Source: an uncultured Geobacteraceae bacterium (lineage in GTDB: Bacteria; Desulfobacterota; Desulfuromonadia; Geobacterales; Pseudopelobacteraceae). From it: a DNA stretch of 62,921 nucleotides. The notes beneath the pieces are model-generated. The model made no database searches, was not told the DNA's origin, and was given only the letters and a program-made list of their open reading frames with translations. The translations under genes and the position numbers were made by a program. Where the stretch lies: positions 1 through 62,921 of the forward strand of contig CAIYDX010000190.1 in assembly GCA_903925005.1 (NCBI GenBank). The letters are read 5' to 3'. Position 1 is the first letter of the stretch; each line of letters begins with the position of its first letter. Below are positions 5,854 to 62,468 of this stretch, one piece after another.

Positions 5854-5871
5854 TAAAAATGTTTGTATTAT

Positions 5872-8201: not shown

Positions 8202-8204
8202 GGA

Positions 8205-8288: not shown

Positions 8289-8290
8289 TT

Positions 8291-12826: not shown

Positions 12827-12862
12827 GGGTTCGCTCCTAAAATATTGCATATTATATTGATT

Positions 12863-12998: not shown

Positions 12999-13000
12999 AA

Positions 13001-32205: not shown

Positions 32206-33186
32206 TTACCCGCCTATAGACGACATGTTGAATGCCTGATGATGGCACTCATCAGGAGTCATCTGATGTCGAACCGGCTTGGTATCGACAATTGCGCCCA
32301 GGGTCTGGGCAAGCAGCAAGTCGGAACCGCTTCGCAGGGACGGCTTCAGATCGATCTGTGACCCGGCAAAGAGGCACCCTTTGACCGTACCCGATGCGGT
32401 GACCCTGATCCGGTTGCACTCGGAACAGAAGTGATGAGAGACCGGGGTGATGACGCCCAGAGTGCCGGACGCGCCGGCGATGCGGAAGTTTCGTGCCGGA
32501 CCGGCCATTTCCGCCTGTTCAAGAGGAATCAGCGTTAAGCGCTGCTCCAGCCTGGCCAGGATCTCCGAGCCGGGCAGTACCAGTTGCTGCCAGCCATGTT
32601 CACGAATTGCCGGCATATATTCGATGAAGCGGACGGTAATTGCAGAGCTGGTCGCCAAGGTGGCAAAATCCAATATCTCATGGTCGTTGATGCCGCGCAT
32701 TACCACCATGTTGAGTTTGATCGGAAAGCCGCACGATTGTGCCGCCTCTATTCCGGCCAGAACACGCGCCAGGTCGCCGCAGCGGGAAATCTGCGCAAAG
32801 GTTTTCGGATCAAGGGAGTCGAGGCTGATGTTAAGCCGCTGTACCCCGGCCAAACTAAGGTCGGCAGCCATTTTTTCAAGAAGCACGCCATTGGTTGTCA
32901 ACACCAGCTGCTTCAAGCCGGGAATCTCGGCCAGATGCTGCAGAAACGAAACGATCCCTTTGCGTACCAGTGGTTCGCCGCCGGTTATCCTGATTTTATC
33001 TATGCCGATGGCAACGGCAACCTGGGCAATCCGGTACAGTTCTTCGTAGCTGAGAATTTCGCCGTGAGCAATTTTGCCGATTCCCTCTTCCGGCATGCAG
33101 TATCTGCAGCGAAGGTTGCAGCGATCGGTAACGGAGAGGCGCAGGTAGTTGATGGTTCTGCCGATGGAGTCTTGAAGCGGTTTCAT
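32206..33186 (-). CDS. moaA: GTP 3',8-cyclase
   Basis: 326 residues from the ATG at 33186 (AAGGGTG upstream). The first FeS cluster motif is CNLRCRYC (C23, C27, C30), the C-terminal cluster is CSECNRIRV with GCLF, and the protein ends ...SIGG with the conserved Gly-Gly. It catalyses the first step of molybdopterin synthesis. It is downstream of the NtrC-type regulator and ADH2-kinase genes, so pterin supply may be co-expressed with them. Confidence 0.95.
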   Translation of the reverse strand: MKPLQDSIGRTINYLRLSVTDRCNLRCRYCMPEEGIGKIAHGEILSYEELYRIAQVAVAIGIDKIRITGGEPLVRKGIVSFLQHLAEIPGLKQLVLTTNGVLLEKMAADLSLAGVQRLNISLDSLDPKTFAQISRCGDLARVLAGIEAAQSCGFPIKLNMVVMRGINDHEILDFATLATSSAITVRFIEYMPAIREHGWQQLVLPGSEILARLEQRLTLIPLEQAEMAGPARNFRIAGASGTLGVITPVSHHFCSECNRIRVTASGTVKGCLFAGSQIDLKPSLRSGSDLLLAQTLGAIVDTKPVRHQMTPDECHHQAFNMSSIGG

Positions 33187-46901: not shown

Positions 46902-46920
46902 ACCGCCATATTTTGCCGCT

Positions 46921-47020
46921 CTCCGAGTTGCTGCGCCTACAAGGGAAAAATCCTCATGGCGTACAACCTGCGGGTGTCGCCGGAAACGGCGCCGCCCTCC
47001 TTTGAAAAGGGGAACCGTGC
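46921..47020 (+). promoter_or_regulatory. Moco/Tuco-type riboswitch before moaE-tupABC
   Basis: The leader shares CUCCGAG at its 5' end, a GGAAAC-capped GUCGCC/GGCGCC stem and GCCCUCCUUUGAAAAGG with the elements at 5764 and 51043. A CACCG-C-CGGTG hairpin and a terminator at 47051 follow. It is likely to switch off tungstate uptake when cofactor is plentiful. Confidence 0.78.
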
Positions 47021-47050
47021 TTGATGTGCCACCGCCGGTGGTGCGTCCGC

Positions 47051-47601: not shown

Positions 47602-48414
47602 ATGAAACACATTTTTCATCTGATGATTGCCATAACCCTGTTTGCCGCATGTTGTTCATCGGCCGGAGCGGAGGAGCGGCTCAGGATGTCCACCACCACC
47701 TCCACCGAGAATTCGGGACTGCTGAAAGTCCTGCTGCCTCCCTTCGAGAAGCGGAACAGCTGCCGTGTGGACGTCATTGCCGTAGGCACCGGTAAGGCCC
47801 TGAAGATCGGCGAGACCGGGGACGTGGATGTGGTCTTCGTTCATGCCCGCAAGCTGGAGGACAAGTTCGTGTCGAATGGTTTCGGCGTCAATCGCCGTGA
47901 CGTCATGTACAACGATTTTGTCATCATTGGTCCAGCCGCAGATCCTGCCGGCATCAAGGGGGCAAAGAACGCCGCCGAGGCGCTGAAGAAGATCGCCGCC
48001 AGACAGGCGACCTTTGTTTCCCGTGGCGACGAGTCGGGGACCCACCAGAAGGAGAAGGAACTCTGGCGGGCTGCGGGTATCAAGCCGGCGGGCAAATGGT
48101 ACCAGTTGGCGGGACAGGGGATGGGTGAGGTTATCGTCATGGCGACCGAACAGCAGGGCTACGCCCTGGCGGATCGAGGAACCTACAATACCTTCAGGAA
48201 TGGCAATAGCAACCTGAAGATCCTCTTCGAGGGTGAAAAGGGGCTCTTCAACCCCTACGGCGTGATTGCCGTCAACCCTAAAAAACATCCACACGTCAAA
48301 TATGACCTGGCCATGCGCTTTATTGATTTCATTACCAGCCCGGAAGGGCAGTCGATCATCGCCGGCTACAAGGCGAACGGCGACCAGATCTTCTTCATCT
48401 ACAAGGGTAAATAG
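47602..48414 (+). CDS. tupA: Tungstate ABC transporter substrate-binding protein
   Basis: 270 residues from ATG 47602, with a signal peptide (MKHIFHLMIAITLFAACCSS). RMSTTTSTENSGLLKVLLPP and VSRGDESGTHQKEKELWRAA are hallmarks of TupA/WtpA-like oxyanion binders, which prefer tungstate. Periplasmic; works with TupB and TupC encoded directly downstream. It starts 19 bases after moaE. Confidence 0.92.
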   Translation: MKHIFHLMIAITLFAACCSSAGAEERLRMSTTTSTENSGLLKVLLPPFEKRNSCRVDVIAVGTGKALKIGETGDVDVVFVHARKLEDKFVSNGFGVNRRDVMYNDFVIIGPAADPAGIKGAKNAAEALKKIAARQATFVSRGDESGTHQKEKELWRAAGIKPAGKWYQLAGQGMGEVIVMATEQQGYALADRGTYNTFRNGNSNLKILFEGEKGLFNPYGVIAVNPKKHPHVKYDLAMRFIDFITSPEGQSIIAGYKANGDQIFFIYKGK

Positions 48415-48418
48415 CGTC

Positions 48419-49105
48419 ATGGGATTTATCCGCGAATCGGTCTCCACCTCACTCGCCCTCATTCTCTCCCTGGACAGCGAGGTCTTCACGGCCGTATTGA
48501 CATCTGTCAGCGTGGCCGGTTGGTCGATCCTCATAGCGTCCGTGATCGGCATTCCCGTCGGTCTGGCAATCGCCATCGGCGAATTCACGCTCAAACGGGT
48601 GACCATCACCCTGCTCAACACCCTGATGGCCATGCCTACCGTGGTCGTTGGTTTGCTTGTCTATGGAATCATCAGCAGGCAAGGCCCGCTGGGAGGGCTC
48701 GGCCTGCTCTTTACCCCCTGGGCTATTGTCATTGGCCAAGCCCTGTTGGCTATTCCTATTGTCGCAAATTACACTCTGAGTGCTGTCAAGGGAGCTGATA
48801 GCCGCATCTTGCCGACCGCTCTGACCCTTGGAGCAAGCCAGCTGCAATGTGTGATCCAACTGGTGCGCGAGGTCCGTTTTGGGGTGATGGCTGCCGTTAT
48901 CGCCGGATTCGGCCGGGTCATCTCCGAGGTTGGGGTGGCAATGATGCTCGGCGGCAACATCCGTGGCTATACCAGGACCATGACCACCGCGATTGCCCTT
49001 GAGACAAGTAAGGGGGAGTTCGCCTTTGGACTGGCACTCGGCATCATTTTGATGGTGGTCGCCCTGGTCGTCAACCTGGCCCTGAATTTTATGCAACAGA
49101 GGTAA
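48419..49105 (+). CDS. tupB: Tungstate ABC transporter permease
   Basis: 228 residues from ATG 48419, 4 bases after tupA; the longer frame lies within tupA and is rejected. Six hydrophobic segments and an EAA loop region (TALTLGASQLQCVIQLVREV) identify an ABC importer permease of the TupB type. Confidence 0.92.
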   Translation: MGFIRESVSTSLALILSLDSEVFTAVLTSVSVAGWSILIASVIGIPVGLAIAIGEFTLKRVTITLLNTLMAMPTVVVGLLVYGIISRQGPLGGLGLLFTPWAIVIGQALLAIPIVANYTLSAVKGADSRILPTALTLGASQLQCVIQLVREVRFGVMAAVIAGFGRVISEVGVAMMLGGNIRGYTRTMTTAIALETSKGEFAFGLALGIILMVVALVVNLALNFMQQR

Positions 49106-49111: not shown

Positions 49112-49762
49112 ATGGTTTCACGATTAACTCTGACATCTATCCGGAAATACTATGGGGATAAGCTCGCCTTGGAAATGGACGAACTCGCTTTGGAGGCGGG
49201 ACGCCTTTACATTCTTACCGGTCCCAACGGATCGGGAAAGAGCACTCTTCTCAACATCCTTGCCTTATTGGTGAGACCGGAACGGGGTGATATATACTTT
49301 GACGGGGAATGCGTAACATGGAATAGAGACACCCTGAACCTGCTGCGCAGAAGGGTCACACTTCTTCACCAGTCACCGTACCTCTTTGTTGGCAGCGTGT
49401 TCAGCAACGTTGCTTTCGGTCTTAAGGTCAGGGGGGTAACGGGAGAGAGGTTGAAACAGGGTGTGTTGGATTCTCTGGACAAGGTCGATCTGGCCGGTAT
49501 CGAGGAAAGGGATGTCAAACATCTCTCCGGCGGCGAGGCGCAGCGTGTCGCACTGTCAAGGGCGCTGGCGTTTCGCCCGGAGATCCTTCTGCTGGATGAA
49601 CCTCTAGCAAATGTAGACAGTCGGAGTGCGGAGATAATTGAACGGCTCATAGCCTCCCTGTCCGCCGAAGGAACCACTGTTGTCATGTCCACCCATAATC
49701 CGCTCCATAATGAACGGTTAGAGGGCGATGAAATACGGCTGCTGGGCGGCAGGCTTGATTAA
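49112..49762 (+). CDS. tupC: Tungstate ABC transporter ATPase
   Basis: 216 residues. Walker A GPNGSGKSTLLNIL, ABC signature LSGGEAQRVALSRAL, Walker B LLLDEPLANVDS, H-loop STHNP. It starts 6 bases after tupB and completes the importer. Confidence 0.93.
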   Translation: MVSRLTLTSIRKYYGDKLALEMDELALEAGRLYILTGPNGSGKSTLLNILALLVRPERGDIYFDGECVTWNRDTLNLLRRRVTLLHQSPYLFVGSVFSNVAFGLKVRGVTGERLKQGVLDSLDKVDLAGIEERDVKHLSGGEAQRVALSRALAFRPEILLLDEPLANVDSRSAEIIERLIASLSAEGTTVVMSTHNPLHNERLEGDEIRLLGGRLD

Positions 49763-50085: not shown

Positions 50086-50829
50086 ATGCGGATCCTGATC
50101 AGTATTGACGATACCGACAACCTTGACAGTCCGGGCACCGGCGCTTTGGCGTCCCAGATTGCCGCGGATCTGGAAAGCAACGGCTGGGGAAAGAGCAGCT
50201 TTATCACCCGCCACCAGTTGCTGGTTCACCCCGATATTCTCTATACCTCACATAACAGCGCCATGTGCTTTTCGGCAGTAATCAAGGAAGAATGCCTGGA
50301 ACAGGTAATCAAATATTCCGCCGATTTTCTTGTCCGGGAAAGCGCCGTCGGGTCTGACCCCGGCCTCTGCGTGGCAAAAATAGATAGCCTGCCGGAACCG
50401 GGCGAACTCATCCGCTTCGGCCAGTCGGCAAAGGAAACGGTCCTGACCAAGGAATCGGCCTATGAACTTGCCCGGCGGGCAGGGGTCCATCTTTCCGAAC
50501 ATGGCGGCACCGGGCATGGGGTGATCGGAGCGCTTGCCGGAGCCGGCCTGCGCCTTGGCGGCAACGACGGTCGCCTGAAGGGGCAGCTCAAATTCTCCGA
50601 TCCGGGTGGCGTTGTCAGCGTTGCTGCTCTGTGCGCCCGTAACGATGTCGATGAGGTTCGGGCTCTGGACGGCAGCTCTGTAGCGAACCGGGATATGGTG
50701 CGGCTGGGTGACAAGGCGAAGACGGTCCTCCTGGACGGCAACTCGGTCCTGTTAGTTGTCGCGACTGATGGGACAGCAGACGGAGCCTGTTGGCAGACAT
50801 GTTCCCGGCAGCTGTTGAAGAAGTATTAA
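50086..50829 (+). CDS. TiaS-like DDTD-domain protein
   Basis: 247 residues from ATG 50086 (GAGGAG upstream); a TTG eleven codons earlier is possible. MRILISIDDTDNLDSPGTGA carries the DDTD motif of the archaeal tRNA-Ile2 agmatidine synthase N-terminus. The OB-fold and zinc ribbon of full TiaS are absent, so this is not a complete enzyme. It lies between the two riboswitch-headed transport operons; a link to tungsten is suggested by place only. Confidence 0.72.
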   Translation: MRILISIDDTDNLDSPGTGALASQIAADLESNGWGKSSFITRHQLLVHPDILYTSHNSAMCFSAVIKEECLEQVIKYSADFLVRESAVGSDPGLCVAKIDSLPEPGELIRFGQSAKETVLTKESAYELARRAGVHLSEHGGTGHGVIGALAGAGLRLGGNDGRLKGQLKFSDPGGVVSVAALCARNDVDEVRALDGSSVANRDMVRLGDKAKTVLLDGNSVLLVVATDGTADGACWQTCSRQLLKKY

Positions 50830-50849: not shown

Positions 50850-51023
50850 ATGAAAAACTATGATTGGGCAGGAGCCGCCAGAACAGCAGCGACCTGTGAA
50901 AAATTTCACCCTGACGAGGAAGATGAGCAGGTCGCCGACGATCCACTATCGTGTTATAATTGCCGTTACCGGCGCTGGACCGCCACCTCGTACAACTGCT
51001 GCAAGGGTCGGACTGAAGATTAA
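50850..51023 (+). CDS. Small cysteine-rich protein
   Basis: 57 residues starting MKNYDWAGAARTAATCEKFH, ending SCYNCRYRRWTATSYNCCKG plus a short tail. A CxxC and a CC pair suggest metal binding. GGGGA lies six bases before the ATG at 50850. It follows the TiaS-like gene by 20 bases. No family recognised. Confidence 0.6.
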   Translation: MKNYDWAGAARTAATCEKFHPDEEDEQVADDPLSCYNCRYRRWTATSYNCCKGRTED

Positions 51024-51042
51024 CTGAAAACCGCATATTTTT

Positions 51043-51144
51043 CTCCGAGCTGCGCTTTCCTACCAGGGTTTCCCTCATGGAAGGCCGCCATTGGGTTCTG
51101 CCGGAAACAGCAGCGCCTTCCTTTTGAAAAGGAGAAACTTCATC
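51043..51144 (+). promoter_or_regulatory. Moco/Tuco-type riboswitch before the TupA-like/ECF operon
   Basis: Begins CUCCGAG and contains GCCGCCAUUGGGUUCUGC, a GCCGGAAACAGC stem and GCCUUCCUUUUGAAAAGG, nearly superimposable on the AOR leader at 5764-5853. An intrinsic terminator follows at 51172. Confidence 0.8.
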
Positions 51145-51171
51145 CGCGCGCTATAACTGCGTGCCGGGAGG

Positions 51172-51204
51172 GGTCTCTTCTTATCAAGGAAGAGGCCTTT
51201 TTTT
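51172..51204 (+). terminator. Expression-platform terminator of the TupA-like leader
   Basis: GGTCTCTTC, TTATCAAG loop, GAAGAGGCC and TTTTTTT, between the aptamer and the gene at 51248. Textbook form for an OFF switch. Confidence 0.88.
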
Positions 51205-51247
51205 ATGATGTAAACTGCAGAATTTAGAACTAATGAGGAGATTTTTC

Positions 51248-52180
51248 ATGTCATTTGAAGATGTTCCAATCCCTCGAAGAGTGTTCCTTGCACTCGCGAC
51301 TACAGCGCTTGCAGCCGGTTCCACTTTACTTGCTGCATCAACATCGGCACATGCAGCGGACTCTGCTGCTGTTACCGGCGCCCAAAGCCGCCCAGGCGGT
51401 ATTAAACATCCCGGTCTTGTTCGTATTGCCTGTGTACCAACAGCAGTGGAGGGGGGCTTGCTGCCGACCCTGATTGACTCCTTCAAGTCGGAAACCGGTC
51501 TTAATGTCGTGTTAACCGAGGATGATGATCCATATAATCCTGCCAAAGAGGGCAAGTTTGATCTCGTTATCTCCCACTTCGGCCATCGTGATGCCGAGGC
51601 CTTTATACTCAAAGGGTTCGGCCAGTGGCCCCGGACAGTGTTTTCAAATCAGCTTGGTCTCTTCGGGCCGCCAGCCGATCCCGCCAAGATCCGGGGCATG
51701 TCCGATCTGGCGGCGGCCTTTCGCAAAATTGCCGATGCAAAAGCGCCATATGTGGTGAATGAGACGAGAGGGATCAAGTACCTGACGGAAATTCTCTGGA
51801 ACGCTGCGGGGAAACCGCCCAAGGGGAGCTGGTTTATCGATTCGGGGATCAGCAAGAAAGATGCGATTGCTCTGGCCGCGAAACATAAAGCGTACGTAAT
51901 CTGGGGACTCACCCCTTTTGACAGTGAACAAAAGGCTTCGCACAGGGAACTCGTGCCGCTTGTCACGGCAGATCCGCTGCTGCAAAGAATCATGGTGTCG
52001 GTTGTGGTCAATCCCGAGCGCGTGGCGGGCGTGAACGTTACCGACGCTGCGAAATTCCAGAAATTCCTGCTTTTGCCGTCAACGCAGGCAAAGATTCTAG
52101 CGGTTCATTATCCGGGCGCCAACCAGGCCACGTGGGCGCCGGCCGGTCGCAACAACGCGGGGGCGGCCTTGCCGGAGTGA
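51248..52180 (+). CDS. TupA-like periplasmic binding protein
   Basis: 310 residues from ATG 51248 (AGGAG upstream). The N-terminal PIPRRVFLALATTALAAGST resembles a Tat-type or Sec signal. The body follows TupA (AVEGGLLPTLIDSFKSETGL; LFGPPADPAKIRGMSDLAAA; NETRGIKYLTEILWNAAG), but the TTTST and SRGD oxyanion segments of TupA are replaced. The ligand may be a bound form of tungsten or molybdenum rather than the free oxyanion. First gene behind the riboswitch. Confidence 0.8.
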   Translation: MSFEDVPIPRRVFLALATTALAAGSTLLAASTSAHAADSAAVTGAQSRPGGIKHPGLVRIACVPTAVEGGLLPTLIDSFKSETGLNVVLTEDDDPYNPAKEGKFDLVISHFGHRDAEAFILKGFGQWPRTVFSNQLGLFGPPADPAKIRGMSDLAAAFRKIADAKAPYVVNETRGIKYLTEILWNAAGKPPKGSWFIDSGISKKDAIALAAKHKAYVIWGLTPFDSEQKASHRELVPLVTADPLLQRIMVSVVVNPERVAGVNVTDAAKFQKFLLLPSTQAKILAVHYPGANQATWAPAGRNNAGAALPE

Positions 52181-52219
52181 TACACGGCCAAGGATTTTAA
52201 TAATCGAATGGAGAAAAGC

Positions 52220-52573
52220 ATGATTAAGAAAATAACGATATTCGCGCTGCTGGCGATGTTCTCTTGCGTATCAATGGTTGCGATATCTGCCGGGCAACCG
52301 GGCACAACCGACACGGTTTTTAACAGGAAGTTTGTCCAGAAGTTAAAGCCGATGATGCCTTATGATCAACTGGTGAAAATTATAGGCATAGAGGGTGCGA
52401 AGGTCGGAGAAGATAAACGTTCATCGCCGCCTAAAGCGCTCTACCACTGGAGCGGCGATAGGAAATCGGCTTTGGATATCAAGGTTGTCGCAGGCAAGGT
52501 TGTCGATGTCACTGTGACAACACCGAAGAAGCAAAAACTCTCGCTCGGAAAAAATGGCGAATTAGTTGAGTAG
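52220..52573 (+). CDS. Small exported protein
   Basis: 117 residues from ATG 52220 (MIKKITIFALLAMFSCVSMV signal); an ATG four codons earlier at 52208 is also possible. The mature part has VFNRKFVQKLKPMMPYDQLV and KIIGIEGAKVGED, similar to SmpA/OmlA or BLIP-like repeats that start with a helix pair. Function unknown; periplasmic, in the TupA-like/ECF operon. Confidence 0.72.
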   Translation: MIKKITIFALLAMFSCVSMVAISAGQPGTTDTVFNRKFVQKLKPMMPYDQLVKIIGIEGAKVGEDKRSSPPKALYHWSGDRKSALDIKVVAGKVVDVTVTTPKKQKLSLGKNGELVE

Positions 52574-52591
52574 GGTGAGTAGGGATTTCCC

Positions 52592-53986
52592 ATGAATAGT
52601 GACGTACTTAAAATCGACAGTCTTACCTACCGCTATCCCGGCACATCGATTTCGGCGCTGACGGATGTCTCCTGCGCGGTAAGATCGGGCGAGTTCATCT
52701 GCCTGACCGGCGATTCGGGTTGCGGCAAGACTACCTTACTGCTGGCAATCAAGGGACTTTTGCGCGGCAGCAGCTATTCAGAGGCGATCAAGATTGCCGT
52801 GCCGCCAACTGTGGATGCCTGGTCCACCTCGATCGGCCATGTTTTTCAGAATGCCGAGTCCCAGATTCTCTGCACTACCGTTGCCGAAGAGGTCGCCTTC
52901 GGTCCGGAAAACCTCTGTGCGCCATCCGAGGAAATCGCCCGTCGGGTCCGGAATGCTCTACGGGACGTGGGACTTGATGGCTGCGAAATGCGTAATGTGG
53001 AACGTTTTTCCGCCGGTCAGAAACAACGGCTGACCATCGCCTCGGTCCTGGCTATGAATCCGTCGCTGCTGCTCCTCGATGAGCCGACCTCGCAGCTGGA
53101 CAGTCAGGGAAAGCATGAACTGTGTGCTGTTCTGTGCGAGCTCAAGAGGCAAGGTTATACCATAATCATGGCCGAGCACGATCCACGCCCCTTTGCAGCC
53201 ATCATCGACCGCTATCTTCTCATGTCGGGTGGGGGGATCGGCGACTCTGTCACGATCCTGCCGAAGCCGGAGCGTTACGCCGCAAAATCCGCCGCCATGT
53301 CGCAGCCTGCCGCTGTAGATGGACAATCGGCGATCATTGCCGTAAAGGGACTCAGCTTTTCCTACCCGGAAACCGGTACGGCGCTGGAACAGGTAAACCT
53401 TCAGGTGATGAGGGGTGAACTGGTGCAACTATACGGCAATAACGGCGCGGGAAAGTCAAGCCTGCTCCGTTGTCTGGCCGGTCTGGTACGCCCCGATTCC
53501 GGTACGGTCGAGATTGCCGGTTTGGCCGGTCCCCGCCCGGAACAACTGCCGGGAAAAGTCGGAGTCCTGTTCCAGAACCCGACCCGGCAGCTATTCGCAG
53601 AGAGCGTGCATGACGAAGTGGCGTATACCCTGCAACGTATGGGGCATCCCAGTCGCGAGACAGAGCGGGTCGTAATGGAAACGCTCACACTTTGCGGTAT
53701 CGGGCATCTTGCCGAGCGGGCGCCGCTCACCTTGAGTTTCGGAGAACAGCACCGTGTGGCACTCGCGGCGGTGATGGCGCCGCACCCCGATGTGCTCCTG
53801 CTGGACGAGCCGTTTGCCGGGCTTGATTTTCCGCAGCGGCTGTCTCTGCTGGATATCCTGGCGGAAATGCCCGACAGATACGGCACTACGGTGCTGATCG
53901 CGTCTCATGACGAGCTGCCGGATCAGAGCTGGGCGGATCGTACATTGAAGATAAAGGGGGGACACCTTGTCGAAACCTGCCATTAA
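52592..53986 (+). CDS. ECF-type transporter ATPase, two fused ABC domains
   Basis: 464 residues. The first ABC domain (1-225) has Walker A TGDSGCGKTTLLLAI, Q-loop VFQNAESQI and signature FSAGQKQRLTIASV; the second (250-464) has YGNNGAGKSSLLRC, LFQNPTRQLF and LSFGEQHRVALAAV. This double layout matches fused EcfA1/A2 subunits. It is 18 bases after the small exported protein and overlaps the T component by 20 bases. Confidence 0.9.
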   Translation: MNSDVLKIDSLTYRYPGTSISALTDVSCAVRSGEFICLTGDSGCGKTTLLLAIKGLLRGSSYSEAIKIAVPPTVDAWSTSIGHVFQNAESQILCTTVAEEVAFGPENLCAPSEEIARRVRNALRDVGLDGCEMRNVERFSAGQKQRLTIASVLAMNPSLLLLDEPTSQLDSQGKHELCAVLCELKRQGYTIIMAEHDPRPFAAIIDRYLLMSGGGIGDSVTILPKPERYAAKSAAMSQPAAVDGQSAIIAVKGLSFSYPETGTALEQVNLQVMRGELVQLYGNNGAGKSSLLRCLAGLVRPDSGTVEIAGLAGPRPEQLPGKVGVLFQNPTRQLFAESVHDEVAYTLQRMGHPSRETERVVMETLTLCGIGHLAERAPLTLSFGEQHRVALAAVMAPHPDVLLLDEPFAGLDFPQRLSLLDILAEMPDRYGTTVLIASHDELPDQSWADRTLKIKGGHLVETCH

Positions 53987-54779
53987 AAACCCCGGTCACA
54001 AACTGCTCCGTACGAGCGACTATGCCTGCCAGTATATGACTCACGACTCGCTGGTTCATCGCCTCGGCGCCGGGTGGAAAATTGCCATCGGCACACTGCT
54101 GAGCGCACTGGCCGTGGGCGCGCGTACCCCAGGCGAGCTTCTTGCCCTTGTAATCGTAACGCTGGCCTACTACTTTGCGGCTCGGCTTTCGCCGTTTGAC
54201 CTCTGGCGCGATATCCGTTTCTTTGTGTTCCAGGCCCTGCTCATCACCGGCCTCTACTGCCTGCTCAAAGGTGTGTCCACGGGGCTTTGGCCCGGCATCC
54301 GGCAGTCCGTGCAGATCGTTCTCTTCTATATTCCCGGCGCGGTGCTCCTGCGTACCACGCGCTCCGCCGACATGATGCGGGGGCTGCGCCGGATCGTCCC
54401 TTACCGGCTTTCATTCCTGGTGTTCGTGAGTATCAGGTTCGTGCCGTTTTTTCTCCGTGAGCTGGATGAGATAATGGTGGCGCAGCGGCTGCGGGGGGCG
54501 CGTCTTCTCCCCCGTCAACTGGTTGATCCCCGCAACTGGGGAGACCTGTTCCACTGTCTTCTGCTGCCGCTCATGGTTCGGGCGCTGAAAACCGCCGACG
54601 ATGTCTCCAAGTCGGCCGAGGCCCGTGAGTTCGGCCGTCGCGAACAGCGCACCTTCTACGACGTCTCCCGCCAGTACGAACCGGCGGTCCTGACCGCAAC
54701 GGGGCGTCACACCGCTGCTCCGGTCGTTTTGCAGTCATGCGGCCGGATGGGAGTGGAAACAGGGAAAGGACTCTTATGA
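53967..54779 (+). CDS. ECF transporter T component
   Basis: 270 residues, TTG start with GGGGG seven bases upstream. Five or so membrane segments are followed by two coupling motifs of the Ala-Arg-Gly type (AQRLRGARLLPRQL; KSAEAREFGRREQ), the EcfT signature that contacts the ATPases. Overlaps the next gene by 4 bases. Confidence 0.87.
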   Translation: MSKPAIKNPGHKLLRTSDYACQYMTHDSLVHRLGAGWKIAIGTLLSALAVGARTPGELLALVIVTLAYYFAARLSPFDLWRDIRFFVFQALLITGLYCLLKGVSTGLWPGIRQSVQIVLFYIPGAVLLRTTRSADMMRGLRRIVPYRLSFLVFVSIRFVPFFLRELDEIMVAQRLRGARLLPRQLVDPRNWGDLFHCLLLPLMVRALKTADDVSKSAEAREFGRREQRTFYDVSRQYEPAVLTATGRHTAAPVVLQSCGRMGVETGKGLL

Positions 54780-55348
54780 CGAATTCAAGCGAACAGGTAT
54801 ACCTCTGGGATCGTTTTACCTTGCGGGAAGCTTTGCTGCTCGGCTTTTGCGCCACCTTTATCATCCTGACCAGAGCCGGGCTCAGACTGCATATCCATCT
54901 CCCGGGGCACGTGATGTTCTTCACGATGTTTTTTTACCTCCTGGCACGGGGGTGTGTACCGAAGATCGGTGCAGCCACCCTCGTGGGGCTGATCGTCAGC
55001 CTGGCGAGCATCCTCCTCGGAATGGGGACCAAGGGACCGATCGTCTTTGTCAAGTTCATCTTCCCGGCGCTGCTTGTGGATCTGGCCGGTGCCATCTTTC
55101 CCGGCTTTGTCACCAGCATGTTTGCCTGCGTACTGGTCGGCGCTCTCTCCGCCGCCCTGCGCGCGTTGTGCGACACCGGGCTTGAATGGCTGAGCGGCAT
55201 GGAAGAGGAGGTTATCCTGCGGAAGACCGTAATTTCGGCAAGTTTATTCGCCCTGTATGGCGGGCTCGGTTCACTGGCGGTCCCGTCAATTATCCGCAGA
55301 TTGCGGAAAAACGGCCTGATCGACCAGGGGGCGGGTGAAAAGGGTTGA
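54776..55348 (+). CDS. Probable ECF transporter S component
   Basis: 190 residues from ATG 54776 (GGAAAGGA upstream) with about six hydrophobic segments (LREALLLGFCATFIILTRAG, LLVDLAGAIFPGFVTSMFAC). Size, position and topology fit an S component, the substrate-binding subunit. It does not match known vitamin binders that I can recognise, so its cargo is open. Confidence 0.72.
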   Translation: MTNSSEQVYLWDRFTLREALLLGFCATFIILTRAGLRLHIHLPGHVMFFTMFFYLLARGCVPKIGAATLVGLIVSLASILLGMGTKGPIVFVKFIFPALLVDLAGAIFPGFVTSMFACVLVGALSAALRALCDTGLEWLSGMEEEVILRKTVISASLFALYGGLGSLAVPSIIRRLRKNGLIDQGAGEKG

Positions 55349-55368
55349 ACAGCTACGGAGGGGGCACA

Positions 55369-56145
55369 GTGCGTTTTGCGCCCATTCTGCTGGCATCACT
55401 GCTGCTCCATCTGGTTATAGTTATCGCAGTCACCGACGTAAGTCGGCAGGAAGACATCCTGCGGCGCTTATCGCAGAATATGGTGGTCGAATACCTCGAA
55501 TCGGGAAACGACATAAAAAAGCAGCCGGATATGACGGTTCCCCGGAATGTTACGGTGCCGACTCCGAAGCAGCAGCCCGCAGCGCCGGCCGCGAGAGAAG
55601 CCGCTACGGCGCCGCCACTCCTGAAGAATTCGGCGCTTCGTGACCCGGTACGGCAAAATGCTCCATTGTACGGCGCGCCGGCCTCTTCCCTCACGGTTCC
55701 GGCGGAACAGGGGGGGACGACTGCTGCCGGCAATGCCGGAGCGTCGGTAAAGGGGGGCGTTTCCGGCGTGATCTCGGACCGGCATGGCAATACGGGTACG
55801 GGAGCGGTGCTGAAAGCGGGCAGCGGCATGGCATCTAGCGCTTCCCTGCAGCGCCGGGGCGCCTATCAGGCTCTGCTGAAGCGGCTCATCGAGGCACACA
55901 AAGAATATCCCCTGGCGGCCCGCAGGTCAGGGCGGGAGGGGAGCTGTCAGCGCCGTTTTGTAATCAGCCGCACCGGCTTGCTCAAACGGGTCGAATCGCT
56001 TTCGTCGTGCGGCAATGCCTTTCTTGATGAGGCGGCTACCCGTGCCATCTCGGCGGTCGGCACGTTCCCGCCGCTTCCCGACGATTTCAAGGATGCTGAA
56101 GAGGCATTCATCATTACCATGACATTCACGCTTGCACGGCAGTGA
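55369..56145 (+). CDS. tonB: TonB-family protein
   Basis: 258 residues from GTG 55369, chosen because GGAGGGGG lies six bases upstream; a TTG at 55345 has none. One N-terminal membrane helix (FAPILLASLLLHLVIVIAV), a Pro/Ala-rich linker and a C-terminal TonB domain (AYQALLKRLIEAHKEYPLAA, FLDEAATRAISAVGTFPPLP). It supplies proton-motive energy to an outer-membrane receptor, here probably the one at 57684. Confidence 0.88.
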   Translation: MRFAPILLASLLLHLVIVIAVTDVSRQEDILRRLSQNMVVEYLESGNDIKKQPDMTVPRNVTVPTPKQQPAAPAAREAATAPPLLKNSALRDPVRQNAPLYGAPASSLTVPAEQGGTTAAGNAGASVKGGVSGVISDRHGNTGTGAVLKAGSGMASSASLQRRGAYQALLKRLIEAHKEYPLAARRSGREGSCQRRFVISRTGLLKRVESLSSCGNAFLDEAATRAISAVGTFPPLPDDFKDAEEAFIITMTFTLARQ

Positions 56146-56187
56146 TCTCGGCTCAGTCCGAATAAAACAAACAGAGGAGAAACAGGT

Positions 56188-57612
56188 ATGAAACGGAAAC
56201 AACTAACAATCGGGTGGCTGGCAGGCGTCTGCCTGACACTGCTGATGCTGACCCTTGCAGGCTGCGCTGGAAGCGACACGACGCCACTCGCCACTAAAAC
56301 CACTGCCTCGGGAACCATGAACACCACGACCGGCACCACCGCTGCGGTCGTGCCGGTCACCGCCCCGACCGGGGTGACGCTGTCTATTCCGGCAGGCACG
56401 GTACTTACGGATGGTTCGGGAAATCCGGTTACCGGAGATATCACTACCACTGTCGGCTATTCAACTACGACCGCCGATCTTCCTACGGCGGCGAGCACGC
56501 TGCCTGCCGGTTCCACTCTGGCGACCTTCGTCGATATCAGCATGGGAACGGTCAAACACTTTTCAAATCCGCTCACTATTGCGATCAACGTAGCCTCCAG
56601 CGGCGCCAAGGCTGGTGATGCCATAACTGTTTACAGTTTTGACAGCGGCACTAACCTCTGGACCTATGCCGGTACCGAGATAGTGGACACCAATGGCAAC
56701 ATCTCCCCCACCGTCACTCATCTGTCCATATGGGGTCTGTTCAAAAGCTCCACGCCACCGCCAGTCAAACCAACCGGGGTTCAGGCAGCAGCAGGAAACA
56801 GTCAGGCAACCGTGAGCTGGAGCGCGGTGACCGGCGCCACCTCCTACACCATCTATTACGGCACAACCGCCGGTGTTACTACCTCCTCCATTACCAAGGC
56901 GGCCGGCGCAACCTCTCCTCAGGTAATAACTGGGCTAACCAACGGCACGCCGTACTATTTTGTCGTCACCGCCTTGAACGCCGCCGGAGAGAGTGTCGTG
57001 TCGAGCCAAGTCTCCACCACCCCCGTTCCACCCGCACCGGCAAAACCTTCCGGAATCGGGGCTTCAGCCGGTGACGGCCAGGTAACTGTTTCCTGGACCG
57101 TAGTGGCTGCAACCACTTACAACATCTATTACAGCACAACTGCAGGTGTTACCACTGCTACCGGTACCAAGGTTGCCAATGTAACCAGCCCGTATGTGGT
57201 AACTCCCCTCACCAACGGTACACCGTATTATTTTGTCGTCACCGCCGTGAATGCCGGTGGCGAAAGTGGTATTTCGAGTGAGAAGTCAGCTACTCCGTTA
57301 CCAGCACAGCAAGTGCCCACGAACCCCACCGGACGTGCGGCTACATCCACAGTGGCTGGCCAGGCAACCGTTTCTTGGAATGTAGTAACCGGCGCCACCT
57401 CGTACAATATATATTATCTGAAGTCAGCTACAGCTCCAGCAACCACCAACACCGTGATTAGTACAGGCACGAAGGTTTCGAATGCCGTCTCACCTCAGGT
57501 TCTAACCGGTCTTCCAAGCGGCACCTACTATTTTCAGATTACTGCAGTTAACGCCGCCGGTGAAGGTCCCAGTCAGCCAAACGTAATGAATCCAGGGCTC
57601 TTAGTTCAATGA
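56188..57612 (+). CDS. Lipoprotein with three FN3 repeats
   Basis: 474 residues. Signal and lipobox LMLTLAGC, a Thr-rich N-terminal domain of 190 residues with VTLSIPAGTVLTDGSGNPVT, then three fibronectin III repeats (e.g. PTGVQAAAGNSQATVSWSAV; GLTNGTPYYFVVTALNAAGE). Surface or periplasmic; the role in uptake is not clear. GAGGAGAAA upstream. Confidence 0.87.
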   Translation: MKRKQLTIGWLAGVCLTLLMLTLAGCAGSDTTPLATKTTASGTMNTTTGTTAAVVPVTAPTGVTLSIPAGTVLTDGSGNPVTGDITTTVGYSTTTADLPTAASTLPAGSTLATFVDISMGTVKHFSNPLTIAINVASSGAKAGDAITVYSFDSGTNLWTYAGTEIVDTNGNISPTVTHLSIWGLFKSSTPPPVKPTGVQAAAGNSQATVSWSAVTGATSYTIYYGTTAGVTTSSITKAAGATSPQVITGLTNGTPYYFVVTALNAAGESVVSSQVSTTPVPPAPAKPSGIGASAGDGQVTVSWTVVAATTYNIYYSTTAGVTTATGTKVANVTSPYVVTPLTNGTPYYFVVTAVNAGGESGISSEKSATPLPAQQVPTNPTGRAATSTVAGQATVSWNVVTGATSYNIYYLKSATAPATTNTVISTGTKVSNAVSPQVLTGLPSGTYYFQITAVNAAGEGPSQPNVMNPGLLVQ

Positions 57613-57617
57613 CGTTT

Positions 57618-57658
57618 ACCGATACTCCTCCGGTGTTGCCGGAGGAGTATCGGTTTCA
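57618..57658 (+). terminator. Terminator between FN3 lipoprotein and TonB-dependent receptor
   Basis: CCGATACTCCTCCGG, a short GTGTTG loop, then CCGGAGGAGTATCGG and TTTCAATTTTTG. A 14-base stem that should reduce read-through into the receptor gene. Confidence 0.85.
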
Positions 57659-57683
57659 ATTTTTGTTAGCCAGGTGACTACCT

Positions 57684-59672
57684 ATGAAACAGAACGTACT
57701 GCTGGTCCTCTGCATCACGGTAATTGGCGGCTTGCTCCCCTGCCAGCGGAACCTCTATGCTGCCGAGGGGGATCGTTCCGGCGTGTACACTCTTGGCGAG
57801 GTGGTCGTTTCCGGGCAGGGGCCGGGAGTTCAGTCCACTGAAACGATTCATACCGTTACTGCCGAAGATATCCGGAGCAGCGGGGCCAAAACCCTGGATC
57901 AGGCCATTGCACTGTTGCCGGGGATTAATGTCAGGAACGGCGGCGAAGGGGTGCCGCGTATCGATATCCGCGGCTTTCGCACCCGGCATGTTGTCCTTCT
58001 TCTGGATGGCATCCCGATGAATTCCGCCTTTGACCAGCAATTCGATCCGTCCATCATCCCCACCGAAAACATCGCCGAGATCAAACTGACCACCGGCGCC
58101 AGTTCGGTGCTCTACGGTCAGGGGGGGCTCGGCGGCGTGATCAACATCATTACCAAGAAGGGGACCACCGGTGTGCAAGGGGTGGTGGCAGGCGAAAGCG
58201 GCGATCATGCGCCTTATCTCGTCAGAGGAACGGTTTCCGGCGCAACGGACAGATACAATTTTTTCCTGAGCGGCAGCTCGGCCAAGAGTGATGGTTATCC
58301 CCTGTCAAACGGTTTCAAACCCACATCGGAACAGGGCTCCGGATATCGGAGGAACAGCGACAATGAAAAGAATTCCGTTTTCGGCACCATCGGCTTTACC
58401 CCGAACAAGGACTTGGCCCTCGGATTGACCTTTAACTACACCCAGGGTTCATTCGGCCAGCCGGCCAGCGCGGTTAACGATCCCTTCGATCCATTCGCGG
58501 CCCCGGTAAAGTATGCCAGGGTTGACGACTTTTCAGGGGTTTTGGTCCAGCTAGCCGCGGATTATGCGCTGACTGACCGCTTGACTCTCAGGGGGTGGAC
58601 GTTCATTAATCAGCGTGACGAACGTGACAATCAGTACGACAACAGTAATTTTAACTCCTTCAACCTGGCGGCCGGATCATTTCAAGAACATGTCACAACC
58701 TCGATCAAGGGGATCACCCTTCAGCCGCGGTTTGAGATGGGGAGCGCCGGCGTGATCACTCTCTCGCTTGCCGCCGAACGGGACAGCTGGGATAACAGCG
58801 GACCGCTGACCGTTGCGGCCAATACTTTTACTTCACTGGCGGCGAGCAGGTCTCTCGGTATCTATTCGGCCGGCCTTGAATATGAGCTGTCGCCGTTGCC
58901 GGGGGTGGGAGTCGTGGCCGGTTACGGTCATTATCTGCAGACGAGGGACGAGCTGCATGATGATGACTACAGCCTCCTTGCCGGCGTCAGCTATGACCTC
59001 ACCACGGAAACCCGCCTGAAAGCATCCTTCAAACGGAACATCCGTTTTCCCGCGCTGGGGGATCTGTATGACCCGTCTAAAGGCAACCCGCAGTTGGCAA
59101 CGGAACGCTCCTACAGTTATGAGGGTGGGGTGGAACAGAAGCTTCCTCATAACACCCTGTTAGGTGTGACCGGGTTTTACACGGTGGCAAACAACCTTAT
59201 CCAGAACGATCAGGCGACCGGCAGAAACACCAATCTGGCCGAAGTTCGCTTCGCCGGGGTTGAACTGACGTCATCGACTGTTTTGGCAAAAAAGTTCCTG
59301 CTGCGCGCCTCGTACGCCCATCTCTATTCGGAAGACCGGTCGCGAGAGGGGAGAGAACAGCAGCAGTACACCCCCGGCGACAAGGCGACGCTGGAAGGGA
59401 AGTACGACTTCGATTGCGGCCTCTCCTCTTACGCTTCATTGCTTTATGTCGGCAGCCAGTATTTTTATACAAAAAACAACGTATCTCCGGTGCAGAAGGC
59501 GAAGCTGACCGACTACTCGCTGGTTAATCTCAAGTTGAGCCAGAAGGTATTGGATAACAAGGCGACGATCTATTTCGGCGTCAACAACCTGTTCGATGAA
59601 AACTACGAGACGAGCTACGGTTTCCCGCAGGCCGGTCGGTTTATTTACGGCGGCGTCGAGTTCCGTCTGTAA
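57684..59672 (+). CDS. TonB-dependent outer-membrane receptor
   Basis: 662 residues with a signal peptide, TonB-box-like YTLGEVVVSG, plug domain (TLDQAIALLPGINVRNGGEG, VPRIDIRGFRTRHVVLLLDG) and a barrel ending GGVEFRL with a terminal aromatic nearby. Siderophore, cobalamin and metal-complex receptors share this shape. Its context suggests a metal chelate. Confidence 0.92.
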   Translation: MKQNVLLVLCITVIGGLLPCQRNLYAAEGDRSGVYTLGEVVVSGQGPGVQSTETIHTVTAEDIRSSGAKTLDQAIALLPGINVRNGGEGVPRIDIRGFRTRHVVLLLDGIPMNSAFDQQFDPSIIPTENIAEIKLTTGASSVLYGQGGLGGVINIITKKGTTGVQGVVAGESGDHAPYLVRGTVSGATDRYNFFLSGSSAKSDGYPLSNGFKPTSEQGSGYRRNSDNEKNSVFGTIGFTPNKDLALGLTFNYTQGSFGQPASAVNDPFDPFAAPVKYARVDDFSGVLVQLAADYALTDRLTLRGWTFINQRDERDNQYDNSNFNSFNLAAGSFQEHVTTSIKGITLQPRFEMGSAGVITLSLAAERDSWDNSGPLTVAANTFTSLAASRSLGIYSAGLEYELSPLPGVGVVAGYGHYLQTRDELHDDDYSLLAGVSYDLTTETRLKASFKRNIRFPALGDLYDPSKGNPQLATERSYSYEGGVEQKLPHNTLLGVTGFYTVANNLIQNDQATGRNTNLAEVRFAGVELTSSTVLAKKFLLRASYAHLYSEDRSREGREQQQYTPGDKATLEGKYDFDCGLSSYASLLYVGSQYFYTKNNVSPVQKAKLTDYSLVNLKLSQKVLDNKATIYFGVNNLFDENYETSYGFPQAGRFIYGGVEFRL

Positions 59673-59712
59673 ATATTTGAAACATGCGAAGAAAGGTCTC
59701 TGGAGTATACCG

Positions 59713-61140
59713 ATGAAATGCAAATGGCAGAAATTCTCACTTTTTGTTTCAGCAGCCGTTCTCTGCCTGCTGCTTGGCGCCTGCAGCGGCGATACGCCGT
59801 GGCGATTCGATCCCGGAGCGCCGGACAAGCCTGTCGCTCTTACCGCGACGGCTGAGAGCGGTCAGGTTTCACTCAGCTGGCCGTCAGCAAATAATGCCGC
59901 AGCGTATTATGTGTACTTTTCGACATCGCCGAATGTTTCCACGTCTATCGGAAACAGGGTCGCCACCGTGGTTGGCACATCTTATATCCAGACCGGGCTG
60001 ACGAACGGTACGACCTGTTATTTTGTAATCACTTCCGTCAATTCCAACAGCGAAAGTGCGGCGTCGAACCAGGTGTCAACCGTGCCGGCGTTGCCCGGCC
60101 CCTATGCTCAAGGAGATATGACGGGCAGCTGGAACTTCAATATTCTGGTTTCGGGAGCGGGCGCCGGATGGCTGCGCGGCACACTGTCCGTTGACGGCAG
60201 TGGGGCGGTTACGTTCAGTTCATTTCTCGACAGTGCCGGAAACAGTCTGCCGCCCGTCGCTCTGTTCCCGGTGCTGCTGATGAACTCTAACGGGCAGGTC
60301 CGCAATGTCAATGCCGGTGTCCCGTCGTTTCAGGGAGTCATGGCGGCAAGCCGGAAAATGATCGTCGGCAATGTGTCGCCGGGCATTGGCTCTTATGGCA
60401 TGGTTGTTCTGCAGAAACAGGTTCCCGGCGTCGCGTTCAGTCCCGGCGATCTGCAAGGCTTCGGAAATACGGGGGGCGGGGGCCGCCGCTTCATTTATAA
60501 TCAGATTTCAAGCGGTTCGAGTCAGGAGTGGGAATATGCGTCGGGGCAGCTCGGCAAGGATCAAAAGACCCAATATACAGCCATATCCGCGCCATCGAAT
60601 CCGGTTACACCGGGCGATAAGGCCAGCATACTGAACATAACGGCGGACGGCATCGTGACGGAGAGCCGGACAGCCGCCTTGCCGCAGCCGGCGGTCGTGA
60701 TCGACAGAGGGGTCATGTCCGCCGACAAGTCGGTTATCATCGGCACCGCCACGGATACCAGCGGTGCAAACCCCAAATATGTCTTGCGGATTTACCAGTT
60801 GGTGAATATCGTCTCCAGCGACCCCAACACGTTCAGCCAGGCTGACTTGGCCGGTACGTACGATCTGCGGAAACTCACAGGAGGTGTAAGCATTCTGTCG
60901 GCATCCGGCACCGTCATGATTGATGCTCTCGGCGTCGCTACCTATTCTGCGTATGCCGACAGCAACGGCACTGTGACGCTGCCGGCAGGACTCACCCTTG
61001 CCATGGATGCTAGCGGCAATCTCATAAATGCCGCCGATGCATCTTTCCAGGGTAAGCTTTCATATTTTAAAGATATGTTTGTGGCTACCGGAACCGATTC
61101 ACCCGGGACCTACAGTCTCAGCATTGCCCTGAAACGGTGA
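59713..61140 (+). CDS. Lipoprotein with one FN3 repeat
   Basis: 475 residues from ATG 59713 (TGGAG upstream). Signal and lipobox LCLLLGAC, one FN3 domain (VALTATAESGQVSLSWPSAN), then two similar halves each opening with a DMTGSWNF or DLAGTYDL motif and a GSGAVTFSSFLDSAGN-type strand set. It resembles repeated beta-rich Geobacter surface proteins. Function unknown. Confidence 0.82.
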   Translation: MKCKWQKFSLFVSAAVLCLLLGACSGDTPWRFDPGAPDKPVALTATAESGQVSLSWPSANNAAAYYVYFSTSPNVSTSIGNRVATVVGTSYIQTGLTNGTTCYFVITSVNSNSESAASNQVSTVPALPGPYAQGDMTGSWNFNILVSGAGAGWLRGTLSVDGSGAVTFSSFLDSAGNSLPPVALFPVLLMNSNGQVRNVNAGVPSFQGVMAASRKMIVGNVSPGIGSYGMVVLQKQVPGVAFSPGDLQGFGNTGGGGRRFIYNQISSGSSQEWEYASGQLGKDQKTQYTAISAPSNPVTPGDKASILNITADGIVTESRTAALPQPAVVIDRGVMSADKSVIIGTATDTSGANPKYVLRIYQLVNIVSSDPNTFSQADLAGTYDLRKLTGGVSILSASGTVMIDALGVATYSAYADSNGTVTLPAGLTLAMDASGNLINAADASFQGKLSYFKDMFVATGTDSPGTYSLSIALKR

Positions 61141-61151
61141 TCGAGGAGAGT

Positions 61152-61553
61152 ATGGGAAGCGATCAAGAAGGCCGAACAGATAAAAAACAGCGCTCTGCCT
61201 GGCCCAAGGTGTTGAACCTGCTGTTGCGCAGCGGTCACATCGGGACGTCGAGCGTGCTGTTTGGCGGAGTTGTCTGGGCGGTTCCGTACACGCGTCTTGC
61301 AACCTGGCATCATCTGGCCATCGCAACCGGAGTAGCCATGATCATCTCGAACATCTGGCAGTCCCGTCACTGGCCATACCAGGGGCGGGGCGTGATGGCG
61401 GGAGTGCATGTCGGCATGGTCTGGCTGGTTCATCTCAAGCCGGATATAATAGTGCCGATGCTCGCAGCCGCGCTGGCGGTCGGGGTTATCGGCAGCCATC
61501 TTCCCGGCTTCATCCGGCATTGGTCGCTGCTTCATCGCCGGCGGATCGACTGA
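61152..61553 (+). CDS. Small membrane protein
   Basis: 133 residues from ATG 61152; GTG at 61137 is an alternative that overlaps the previous stop. After a charged N-terminus come about four hydrophobic stretches rich in histidine (RSGHIGTSSVLFGGVVWAVP; WHHLAIATGVAMII; LVHLKPDIIVPMLAAAL). No family recognised. Last gene of the uptake locus. Confidence 0.7.
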   Translation: MGSDQEGRTDKKQRSAWPKVLNLLLRSGHIGTSSVLFGGVVWAVPYTRLATWHHLAIATGVAMIISNIWQSRHWPYQGRGVMAGVHVGMVWLVHLKPDIIVPMLAAALAVGVIGSHLPGFIRHWSLLHRRRID

Positions 61554-61821
61554 CCGGAGGTTATCTAAAGGAGTGCGCCATATCCAAGACATGCCTCCTC
61601 GACCAAGACAGGACCGAAGCAAATAATTTGGCAACATTATTACTGATGAGCCTCTTGCAACAGCCCCAAAAGTTCCCCCTTCTCTGGCTCTGAGGCGGTA
61701 TCTTGTACGGTGTAGTCATGGGACGTTTTACGACAGACCACGCAAATTGACCCTTCTCTTTGACATATTTTTTGCAATTTGTTATCACTATAGCTAAACT
61801 GTAATCATGGGAGGTGCACTA
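61554..61821. other. Intergenic stretch with a short IS-like remnant
   Basis: Contains GAGCCTCTTGCAACAGCCCC (61649-61668), which recalls terminal repeats of IS5-type elements, but no transposase reading frame or second end. No other feature seen. Confidence 0.3.
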
Positions 61822-62067
61822 ATGGTGAGAACTCAAATCCAATTAGCCGAACAGCAGGTGTCAATCCTTAAACAGCTTGCCACGTTGCAACATACCTCAA
61901 TGGCGGAACTGATACGTAGGGCTGTCGATATGTTCACAGCCTCGCCTGATATGGGGAATATTCAGGCTTGTCGGCAACGGGCGTTGGCCGCCGCTGGGCA
62001 ATTCCACTCCGGGAGGAGTGATTTGTCCGCCAAACATGACGATTATCTTGCCGAGGCATACCAGTGA
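61822..62067 (+). CDS. Ribbon-helix-helix antitoxin
   Basis: 81 residues from ATG 61822 (GGGAGG upstream). VRTQIQLAEQQVSILKQLAT and MAELIRRAVDMFTAS form a CopG-like RHH domain. Its stop overlaps the toxin GTG by 3 bases (GTGA). It probably represses the pair. Confidence 0.88.
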   Translation: MVRTQIQLAEQQVSILKQLATLQHTSMAELIRRAVDMFTASPDMGNIQACRQRALAAAGQFHSGRSDLSAKHDDYLAEAYQ

Positions 62068-62468
62068 GCAACATCTTCGTCGACACATCAGCTTTTCTTG
62101 CCATTCTTGACGCAGATGACGATTTTCATGCCGAGGCAAAAAGGGCGTGGGGTGAAGTGCTGTCATCTGATTCGTCGCTGGTTACAAGCAATTACATTCT
62201 TGTGGAAACATTTGCTCTTGTACAGAATCGGTTGGGGTTACAGGCCATCAGAGTTTTTCAGGAAGATATAGTCCCACTGTTTTCAATCAGGTGGGTGGAT
62301 TCTGTCATCCATTCTGCTGCAACCGGTGCATTGTTTGCAGCAAACAGAAAGAAGCTCAGTCTCGTGGACTGCACCTCATTTGAGGTCATGCGGAATACTG
62401 CTACAAAGTGTGCATTTACCTTTGACAACCATTTTAAACAACAGGGGTTTGACTGCATCCCAAAGTAA
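62064..62468 (+). CDS. vapC: VapC-type PIN toxin
   Basis: 134 residues with a GTG start. IFVDTSAFLAILDADDDFH, then ILVETFALVQNRLG, and LSLVDCTSFEVM and AFTFDNHFKQQGF provide the PIN acidic cluster. Likely a site-specific RNase. The fold is complete, in contrast to the frameshifted PIN gene at 16649. Confidence 0.9.
   Translation: MSNIFVDTSAFLAILDADDDFHAEAKRAWGEVLSSDSSLVTSNYILVETFALVQNRLGLQAIRVFQEDIVPLFSIRWVDSVIHSAATGALFAANRKKLSLVDCTSFEVMRNTATKCAFTFDNHFKQQGFDCIPK

Follow-up and report, generated by a model that had tools for sequence, protein, structure and literature searches.

What is a TonB-dependent outer-membrane receptor doing in one gene cassette with an energy-coupling factor (ECF) transporter, behind a riboswitch of the class that senses the molybdenum or tungsten cofactor (Moco/Tuco)? 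This question is raised by contig C190 (CAIYDX010000190.1) of an uncultured Geobacteraceae bacterium, which belongs to a 5.4-Mb draft genome of 419 contigs and whose full 62921 bases form the window analyzed here. On one strand (+), the cassette encodes a TupA-like binding protein, a small exported protein, a fused EcfA, EcfT, an S component, TonB, a lipoprotein with fibronectin type III (FN3) domains, the receptor, a second lipoprotein and a membrane protein. This order and the single strand agree between our reading of the open reading frames (ORFs) and an earlier note made from the sequence alone (the original prediction). Another riboswitch of the same class, tupABC and two genes termed c4 and c5 lie upstream on the same strand. 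With a probability of roughly 0.58, we propose that the cassette encodes a feedback-repressed, two-membrane importer that leads from TonB to ECF and serves a tungsten or molybdenum nutrient, probably a complexed metal.

The cassette is preceded by a riboswitch that lacks the P3 stem. The riboswitch foreseen at this place in the original prediction exceeds the Rfam gathering score for RF01055 and starts at 51031 instead of 51043. Downstream of the aptamer, the segment 51140-51215 folds at -32.1 kcal/mol (z -4.9), a stability reached by 0 of 200 shuffled sequences. Further RF01055 copies are found at 5749-5865 (-) before an aldehyde ferredoxin oxidoreductase (AOR) gene, before tupABC and once elsewhere in the genome. 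The P3 columns are deleted in 12 of 12 alignments inspected, namely those of two window copies (starting at 51031 and 46909) and of 10 among 13 matches in other loci carrying a homologue of the S component gene (S loci). Passages of Regulski et al. (PMC2408646) tie the P3-less type to the tungsten cofactor and report that RF01055 senses the cofactor and not the metal. We infer that the riboswitch apparently turns the cassette off on sensing Tuco or Moco.

The S component appears to be new and to lie outside the named families. Neither the cassette protein nor its homologues reach the cut-off of any Pfam or NCBIfam family, and PF09819 matches 6 of 29 family members weakly (best E-value 0.00078). 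The best fold matches of the predicted structure are S components of the vitamin type, which backs the probable S component of the original prediction. EcfA also scores over the cut-off of cbiO (TIGR01166), a cobalt-transport family. EcfT reaches 15.2 against a cut-off of 111.8 for CbiQ (TIGR02454), and Pfam and NCBIfam profile searches of the cassette genes gave no match to CbiM or CbiN. Overlapping stop and start codons between EcfA, EcfT, S and TonB, with start codons chosen by us, suggest translational coupling.

ECF transporter and receptor genes stay together across genomes. Among 277 genomes of the class, 43 contain a homologue of S; a set of 395 genomes sampled from the phylum gives 13, a figure that counts the window's own genome and a few weak or partial matches. 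All 43 class loci including the window were compared, using a mechanical ORF choice that misses or falsely adds some S neighbours and misses S itself in 4 loci. In 41 of the 43 loci, S has an EcfA homologue on its upstream side at a distance of no more than 3 kb, while an EcfT homologue is found near S in 42 and a receptor of one family in 39; the loci without EcfA (G220, G236) or without receptor (G003, G179, G217, G236) are all cut by contig ends. In one family the cassette block runs on into ExbB, ExbD and TonB. Outside the class, the comparison covered 8 of 12 other S-matching genomes, with G454 and parts of G594 and G499 left out. G305 shows the order FN3-receptor-A-T-S-c4-c5, G539 and G499 show receptor-c4-A-T with S assigned by position, G371 has A-T-S with c4 and the receptor on the other strand, G548 has receptor-A-T-S and no c4, and G529 is cut.

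The association of riboswitch and cassette is conserved among close relatives of the window's S component. RF01055 is present in 42 of 43 S genomes; its copies were listed in full for 27 of them, and for the others we consider copies near S among the matches listed. Upstream sequence was sufficient in 39 loci, with G220, G236, G235 and G179 cut too close to S, and G216 was counted as a riboswitch locus on the strength of a riboswitch within its only 5.0 kb of upstream sequence. On the same strand and no more than 5.5 kb upstream of S, RF01055 occurs in 16 of these 39 testable loci at distances of 2.3-5.4 kb; for these 16, the chance expectation is 0.04. Every testable locus whose S protein is at least 61% identical to that of the window carries it (16/16), and the 23 others all show 55% identity or less. 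In the tree, the 16 riboswitch loci cluster in a single group of 18, whose two further members are G220 (cut) and G228 (no riboswitch). As presence tracks both S identity and this one tree group, a single gain of the association followed by its retention is most likely. In G085 and G120, an RF01055 copy about 9 kb upstream perhaps serves other genes. The pairing of riboswitch and ECF genes, for which the original prediction had pointed to comparative genomics, is thus borne out at this level of identity. It had also named cobalamin, nickel or heme signals as evidence to the contrary. A scan of 23 of the 43 S loci and of 16 c4 loci against all of Rfam turned up neither a cobalamin nor a nickel RNA, heme and iron control by protein regulators lying outside such an RNA scan. 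The other Rfam matches are tRNAs, c-di-GMP riboswitches in L046, L060 and L061 and one Moco-II RNA in L045.

The upstream genes c4 and c5 went unseen in the original prediction and belong to the cassette system. c4 is present in 43 of 43 S genomes versus 19 of 234 others (Fisher 8e-36, uncorrected for kinship) and lies close to S in 36 of 43 loci. By its fold, c4 falls in the TiaS kinase-domain superfamily. All 26 c4 proteins compared match the models of both TiaS and methanogenesis marker 11, with which c4 has the kinase-domain fold in common, whereas c4 is shorter (247 residues versus about 420), stays well under the cut-off of either model (25 bits against 600 for the TiaS model NF040849, over the kinase-domain part only) and often clusters with molybdenum and tungsten genes. 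A DDTD motif and Thr18 are invariant across the 26 proteins; we take Thr18 to be the residue with a role in TiaS. Among 16 loci where c4 is located away from S, RF01055 lies about 100 bp upstream on the same strand in 7, and Tup genes or the molybdenum-storage protein stand beside c4 in other S-less loci. In G252 and G257, which lack S, c4 occurs with a receptor of the cassette's family and a PF01497 binding protein, presumably of the type used for metal chelates. Together, c4 and c5 look like unstudied partners of molybdenum and tungsten metabolism.

The transport block is exchanged and lost as a whole. In G056, the arrangement riboswitch-c4-c5-riboswitch is followed by a Porin_O_P (OprP-type) porin, MoaE, two TupA-type proteins, TupB and a TupC-type ATPase, in place of the ECF and TonB genes; the porin family was shown by Pfam on the G163 homologue. 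Within the genus to which G057 belongs, eight genomes were compared. In six of them the ECF-TonB-receptor block stands between c5 and a downstream gene, c20, called glycosyltransferase-like by eye, and in the remaining two (G207 and G053) c5 directly precedes c20, the block is absent and the riboswitch and c4 are kept. Since the block is swapped in G056 and absent as a whole in G207 and G053, it suggests one functional unit set among tungsten and molybdenum genes. Separately, L104 (G024) holds at about 9400-11600 riboswitch-c4-c5-riboswitch followed by only a 263-residue part of EcfA, apparently a decayed cassette.

Molybdenum and tungsten genes also accompany S where the riboswitch is missing. 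Among the 26 loci without riboswitch (G220 left out), a molybdenum-storage protein is located near 9, and 12 have one or more of four kinds of neighbour within about 10 kb: storage protein, TupA or TupA-like protein, TupB and MoaE. The identity of the storage protein rests on one representative, whose PDB match to MoSto beta (8.6e-55) far exceeds that to uridylate kinase (4.5e-11). The storage homologue is encoded in 10 S loci, and in 9 of them it is adjoined by a 70-residue protein without Pfam family (c13) (clusters c11 and c13, for example L109). A protein combining a helix-turn-helix with a PBP_like domain was seen a few kb from molybdenum or tungsten uptake genes or the cassette in L108 (G163, by Pfam) and L101 (G371, by eye), and possibly represents a metal-responsive regulator in riboswitch-less lineages. 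At the level of whole genomes, a TupA match at E <= 1e-30 is found in 42 of 43 S genomes versus 152 of 234 others of the class. At E <= 1e-60, moaA is matched in every one of the 43 S genomes, and the hosts therefore make the pterin.

The TupA-like protein has lost the stretches expected to bind oxyanions. Aligned to the window's own TupA at 47602, it lacks both the TTTS and the SRGDxSGTH stretch, which we take to be the oxyanion stretches of TupA, as the original prediction had stated of this binding protein. Its low score against NF041772 is less telling; the cut-off alone says little because the window's TupA also stays below it and 0 of 277 genomes reach 400. An RR-x-F-L sequence at the N-terminus of the TupA-like protein presumably is a twin-arginine translocation-like signal motif. 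Motif-less TupA-like proteins occur in 7 of 43 loci with a fragment in an eighth (G220); the relatives, in G230, G259, G171, G175, G178 and G180, lack both motifs and reach no more than 34% identity. The gene sits between receptor and EcfA in G230 and G259.

The predicted outer-membrane part consists of the receptor and the lipoproteins. The receptor's nearest named model is BtuB (TIGR01779, 155.8 against a cut-off of 599.7), and siderophore receptor models also match below cut-off. Two FN3 lipoproteins had been predicted originally; the first stands, with FN3 over the cut-off, while the FN3-like match of the second remains below it. A strong hairpin lies in the gap between the receptor gene and the first FN3 gene; the cassette is a putative single operon, and the receptor may be tuned separately from the upstream cassette genes. 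When this gap was folded in 13 loci (without shuffles), a long hairpin was seen by eye in G000, G226, G032, G212 and G203; several other loci are GC-rich and foldable there, G220 shows little, and hairpin sequences differ between loci. With regard to a possible metallophore, the search was confined to ORFs above 900 residues in the sequence retrieved around the 43 loci; it gave 10, which were judged by eye, other kinds of synthetase being outside this search.

In the proposed mechanism, scarcity of the metal-pterin cofactor would let transcription proceed from the P3-less riboswitch through the terminator. Surface FN3 lipoproteins and the TonB-driven receptor would take scarce, probably complexed tungstate or molybdate across the outer membrane, with the cassette's own TonB coupling energy to this step. 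The dedicated ECF transporter, formed by fused A, T and the new S family, would carry the cargo across the inner membrane, assisted in the periplasm of some genomes by the TupA-like protein without oxyanion motifs. In the cytosol, ATP-binding c4 and the cysteine protein c5 may handle the cargo before cofactor synthesis or delivery to the molybdenum-storage protein.

A tungsten or molybdenum species is the cargo predicted from gene linkage, and several observations count against this prediction. Of the 23 testable loci in the other S clades, 0 have RF01055 within 5.5 kb upstream, and 14 of the 26 loci without riboswitch, some of them cut, have none of the four kinds of neighbour counted above. 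G154 is a real exception that possesses the cassette and c4 but no RF01055, TupA or AOR match and only a weak moaA. The TupA-like protein is a recurrent but optional companion. The cargo is further uncertain because the S fold is of the vitamin type and ECF systems under riboswitch control usually take up either the cofactor that is sensed or a precursor of it. The main rival, which we regard as unlikely, is cofactor salvage: receptor and ECF transporter would bring in a pterin, be it molybdopterin, Moco/Tuco or a breakdown product, c4 would re-phosphorylate or activate it and the riboswitch, like others that sense vitamins, would repress uptake of the very ligand it binds. Similarly doubtful is the form in which the tungsten or molybdenum pterin cofactor (or molybdopterin) itself is salvaged, with c4 serving ATP-dependent pterin re-activation. 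Free Moco is very unstable outside proteins, and c4 accompanies TupABC, the OprP-type porin and the storage protein without any S gene; the moaA match in every host and the near-constant presence of TupA likewise speak against salvage. In its favor are the vitamin-type S fold, the kinase-domain fold of c4, the reported sensing of cofactor by RF01055 and, in passages of PMC3766115, the discovery of ECF systems through coenzyme-riboswitch regulons. We prefer a metal cargo over a pterin because c4 keeps company with oxyanion importers and the storage protein.

Uptake of plain tungstate or molybdate at very low concentration, with the TonB receptor replacing a porin and the ECF transporter replacing or backing up TupBC, seems improbable. 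It fits the porin and TupABC genes that occupy the slot of the block in G056 and the storage protein near non-riboswitch loci, but small oxyanions do not need TonB, the window already has tupABC behind the same riboswitch class, and the local TupA-like protein is devoid of oxyanion motifs. We give very little credence to an ordinary uptake system for cobalamin, cobalt/nickel, heme or siderophores that lies beside molybdenum and tungsten genes by chance. The best named models of the receptor (BtuB, siderophore receptors) and the EcfA and EcfT matches to cobalt-transport families (TIGR01166 and PF02361, both over cut-off) would agree with it, but BtuB, CbiQ and siderophore equivalogs all remain below cut-off, CbiM and CbiN find no match in the cassette, the 23 S loci scanned gave no cobalamin or NiCo riboswitch, and the linkages of c4 and riboswitch point to molybdenum and tungsten. 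Features of the cassette and its upstream region are collected in Table 1.

Table 1. Cassette and upstream features, with positions in the window and the evidence for each.
Feature	Position	Strand	Evidence
RF01055 riboswitch before tupABC, P3-lacking	46909..47028	+	Rfam match, alignment
TupA	47602..48414	+	NF041772 252.2 bits (run from 47614), below cut-off 400
TupB	48416..49105	+	NF041773 198.5 bits, cut-off 320; NF038017 233.9 over 100
TupC-like ATPase	49112..49762	+	ABC ATPase matches below cut-offs; named by position
c4, stand-alone TiaS-kinase-like protein	50086..50829	+	Genomic partner of the S gene
c5, small Cys protein, CxxCxxRRW core	50850..51023	+	In 27/43 S loci, counted by the mechanical ORF choice, to which some absences of c5 may be due
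Moco/Tuco riboswitch aptamer RF01055, P3-lacking	51031..51150	+	55.7 bits, gathering score 36; full aptamer, model positions 1-135
Intrinsic terminator, presumed expression platform	~51168..51204	+	Fold and sequence
TupA-like exported binding protein	51248..52180	+	NF041772 34.7 bits, cut-off 400; start by eye from GAGGAG site
Small exported protein, cluster 19	52208..52573	+	No Pfam or NCBIfam family found in profile searches; in 6/43 S loci
Fused EcfA, two ABC ATPase domains	52592..53986	+	TIGR04520 329.6 bits over 315; two PF00005 stretches
EcfT	53967..54779	+	PF02361 50.7 bits over 25
Putative ECF S component, unnamed family	54776..55348	+	Best fold matches are S components; model pLDDT 81.5
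TonB	55345..56145	+	PF03544 48.8 bits over 24.6
FN3 lipoprotein	56188..57612	+	PF00041, 3 stretches, over cut-off; LAGC lipobox by eye
17-bp hairpin and weak T tract, possible terminator or attenuator	57618..57654	+	Between first FN3 gene and receptor
TonB-dependent outer-membrane receptor	57684..59672	+	PF07715 83.2, PF00593 96.4, both over cut-off
Second lipoprotein	59713..61140	+	PF00041 17.8, cut-off 25, FN3-like below cut-off; LGAC lipobox and start by eye
Small membrane protein, cluster 38	61137..61553	+	PAP2-like below cut-off; in 4/43 loci

Other parts of the window hold further genes. A mycofactocin-type cluster at 3982-14041 (-) encodes a radical SAM maturase, an old yellow enzyme homologue (OYE) and an MftF glycosyltransferase over the NCBIfam cut-off, electron transfer flavoprotein (ETF) subunits below it and the AOR behind its own riboswitch. 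At 32209-33177 (-), moaA scores 370.6 bits, over its cut-off, and its place on the cassette's contig means that pterin synthesis and tungsten or molybdenum uptake are encoded together. Just 3' of the cassette (61807-62468, +), RHH and PIN-domain proteins in tandem likely form a toxin-antitoxin pair.

If our proposal holds, the cassette would provide, at the level of genes, a candidate for the active import of tungsten or molybdenum across the outer membrane and a new S-component family with this predicted cargo, and would name c4 and c5 as partners. Cultivable strains probably exist, as several S genomes of the class are single-contig. For Geotalea daltonii, passages of PMC13119186 report that added tungsten and molybdenum stimulate benzoate oxidation, and the supply of these metals can therefore limit such bacteria. 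Among the titles, abstract openings and passages considered from the open PubMed Central (PMC) literature, no ECF or TonB importer for tungsten or molybdenum is described. TonB receptors near molybdopterin-responsive riboswitches were already noted in the Pelobacter carbinolicus genome paper (PMC3543383), the passages of which contain no ECF transporter, c4 or comparative evidence, and passages of PMC5317091 link the Moco riboswitch to a major facilitator superfamily (MFS) molybdate transporter and moa genes and TonB receptors to nickel, cobalamin and thiamine.

With TupABC, WtpABC and ModABC the cassette shares the riboswitch class and, in related genomes, c4, MoaE or the storage protein as neighbours, but its ECF module has neither TupB nor TupC and its TupA-like protein has diverged far from TupA in score and oxyanion motifs. 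Group I (dedicated) ECF transporters include YkoEDC for a thiamin precursor and CbiMNQO for cobalt. In contrast to these, the cassette's S component exceeds no family cut-off, its riboswitch is of the Moco and not the thiamine pyrophosphate (TPP) or cobalamin class, and it brings its own TonB and receptor without a CbiM or CbiN match. Plug and barrel domains, TonB and nearby lipoproteins are common to BtuB and siderophore systems, whereas the cassette locus lies behind a Moco RNA, has no BtuFCD-type inner transporter and encodes a receptor far below the BtuB cut-off. The parts are of known kinds; what appears new is the S family, the way in which the parts are combined and the cargo predicted for them.

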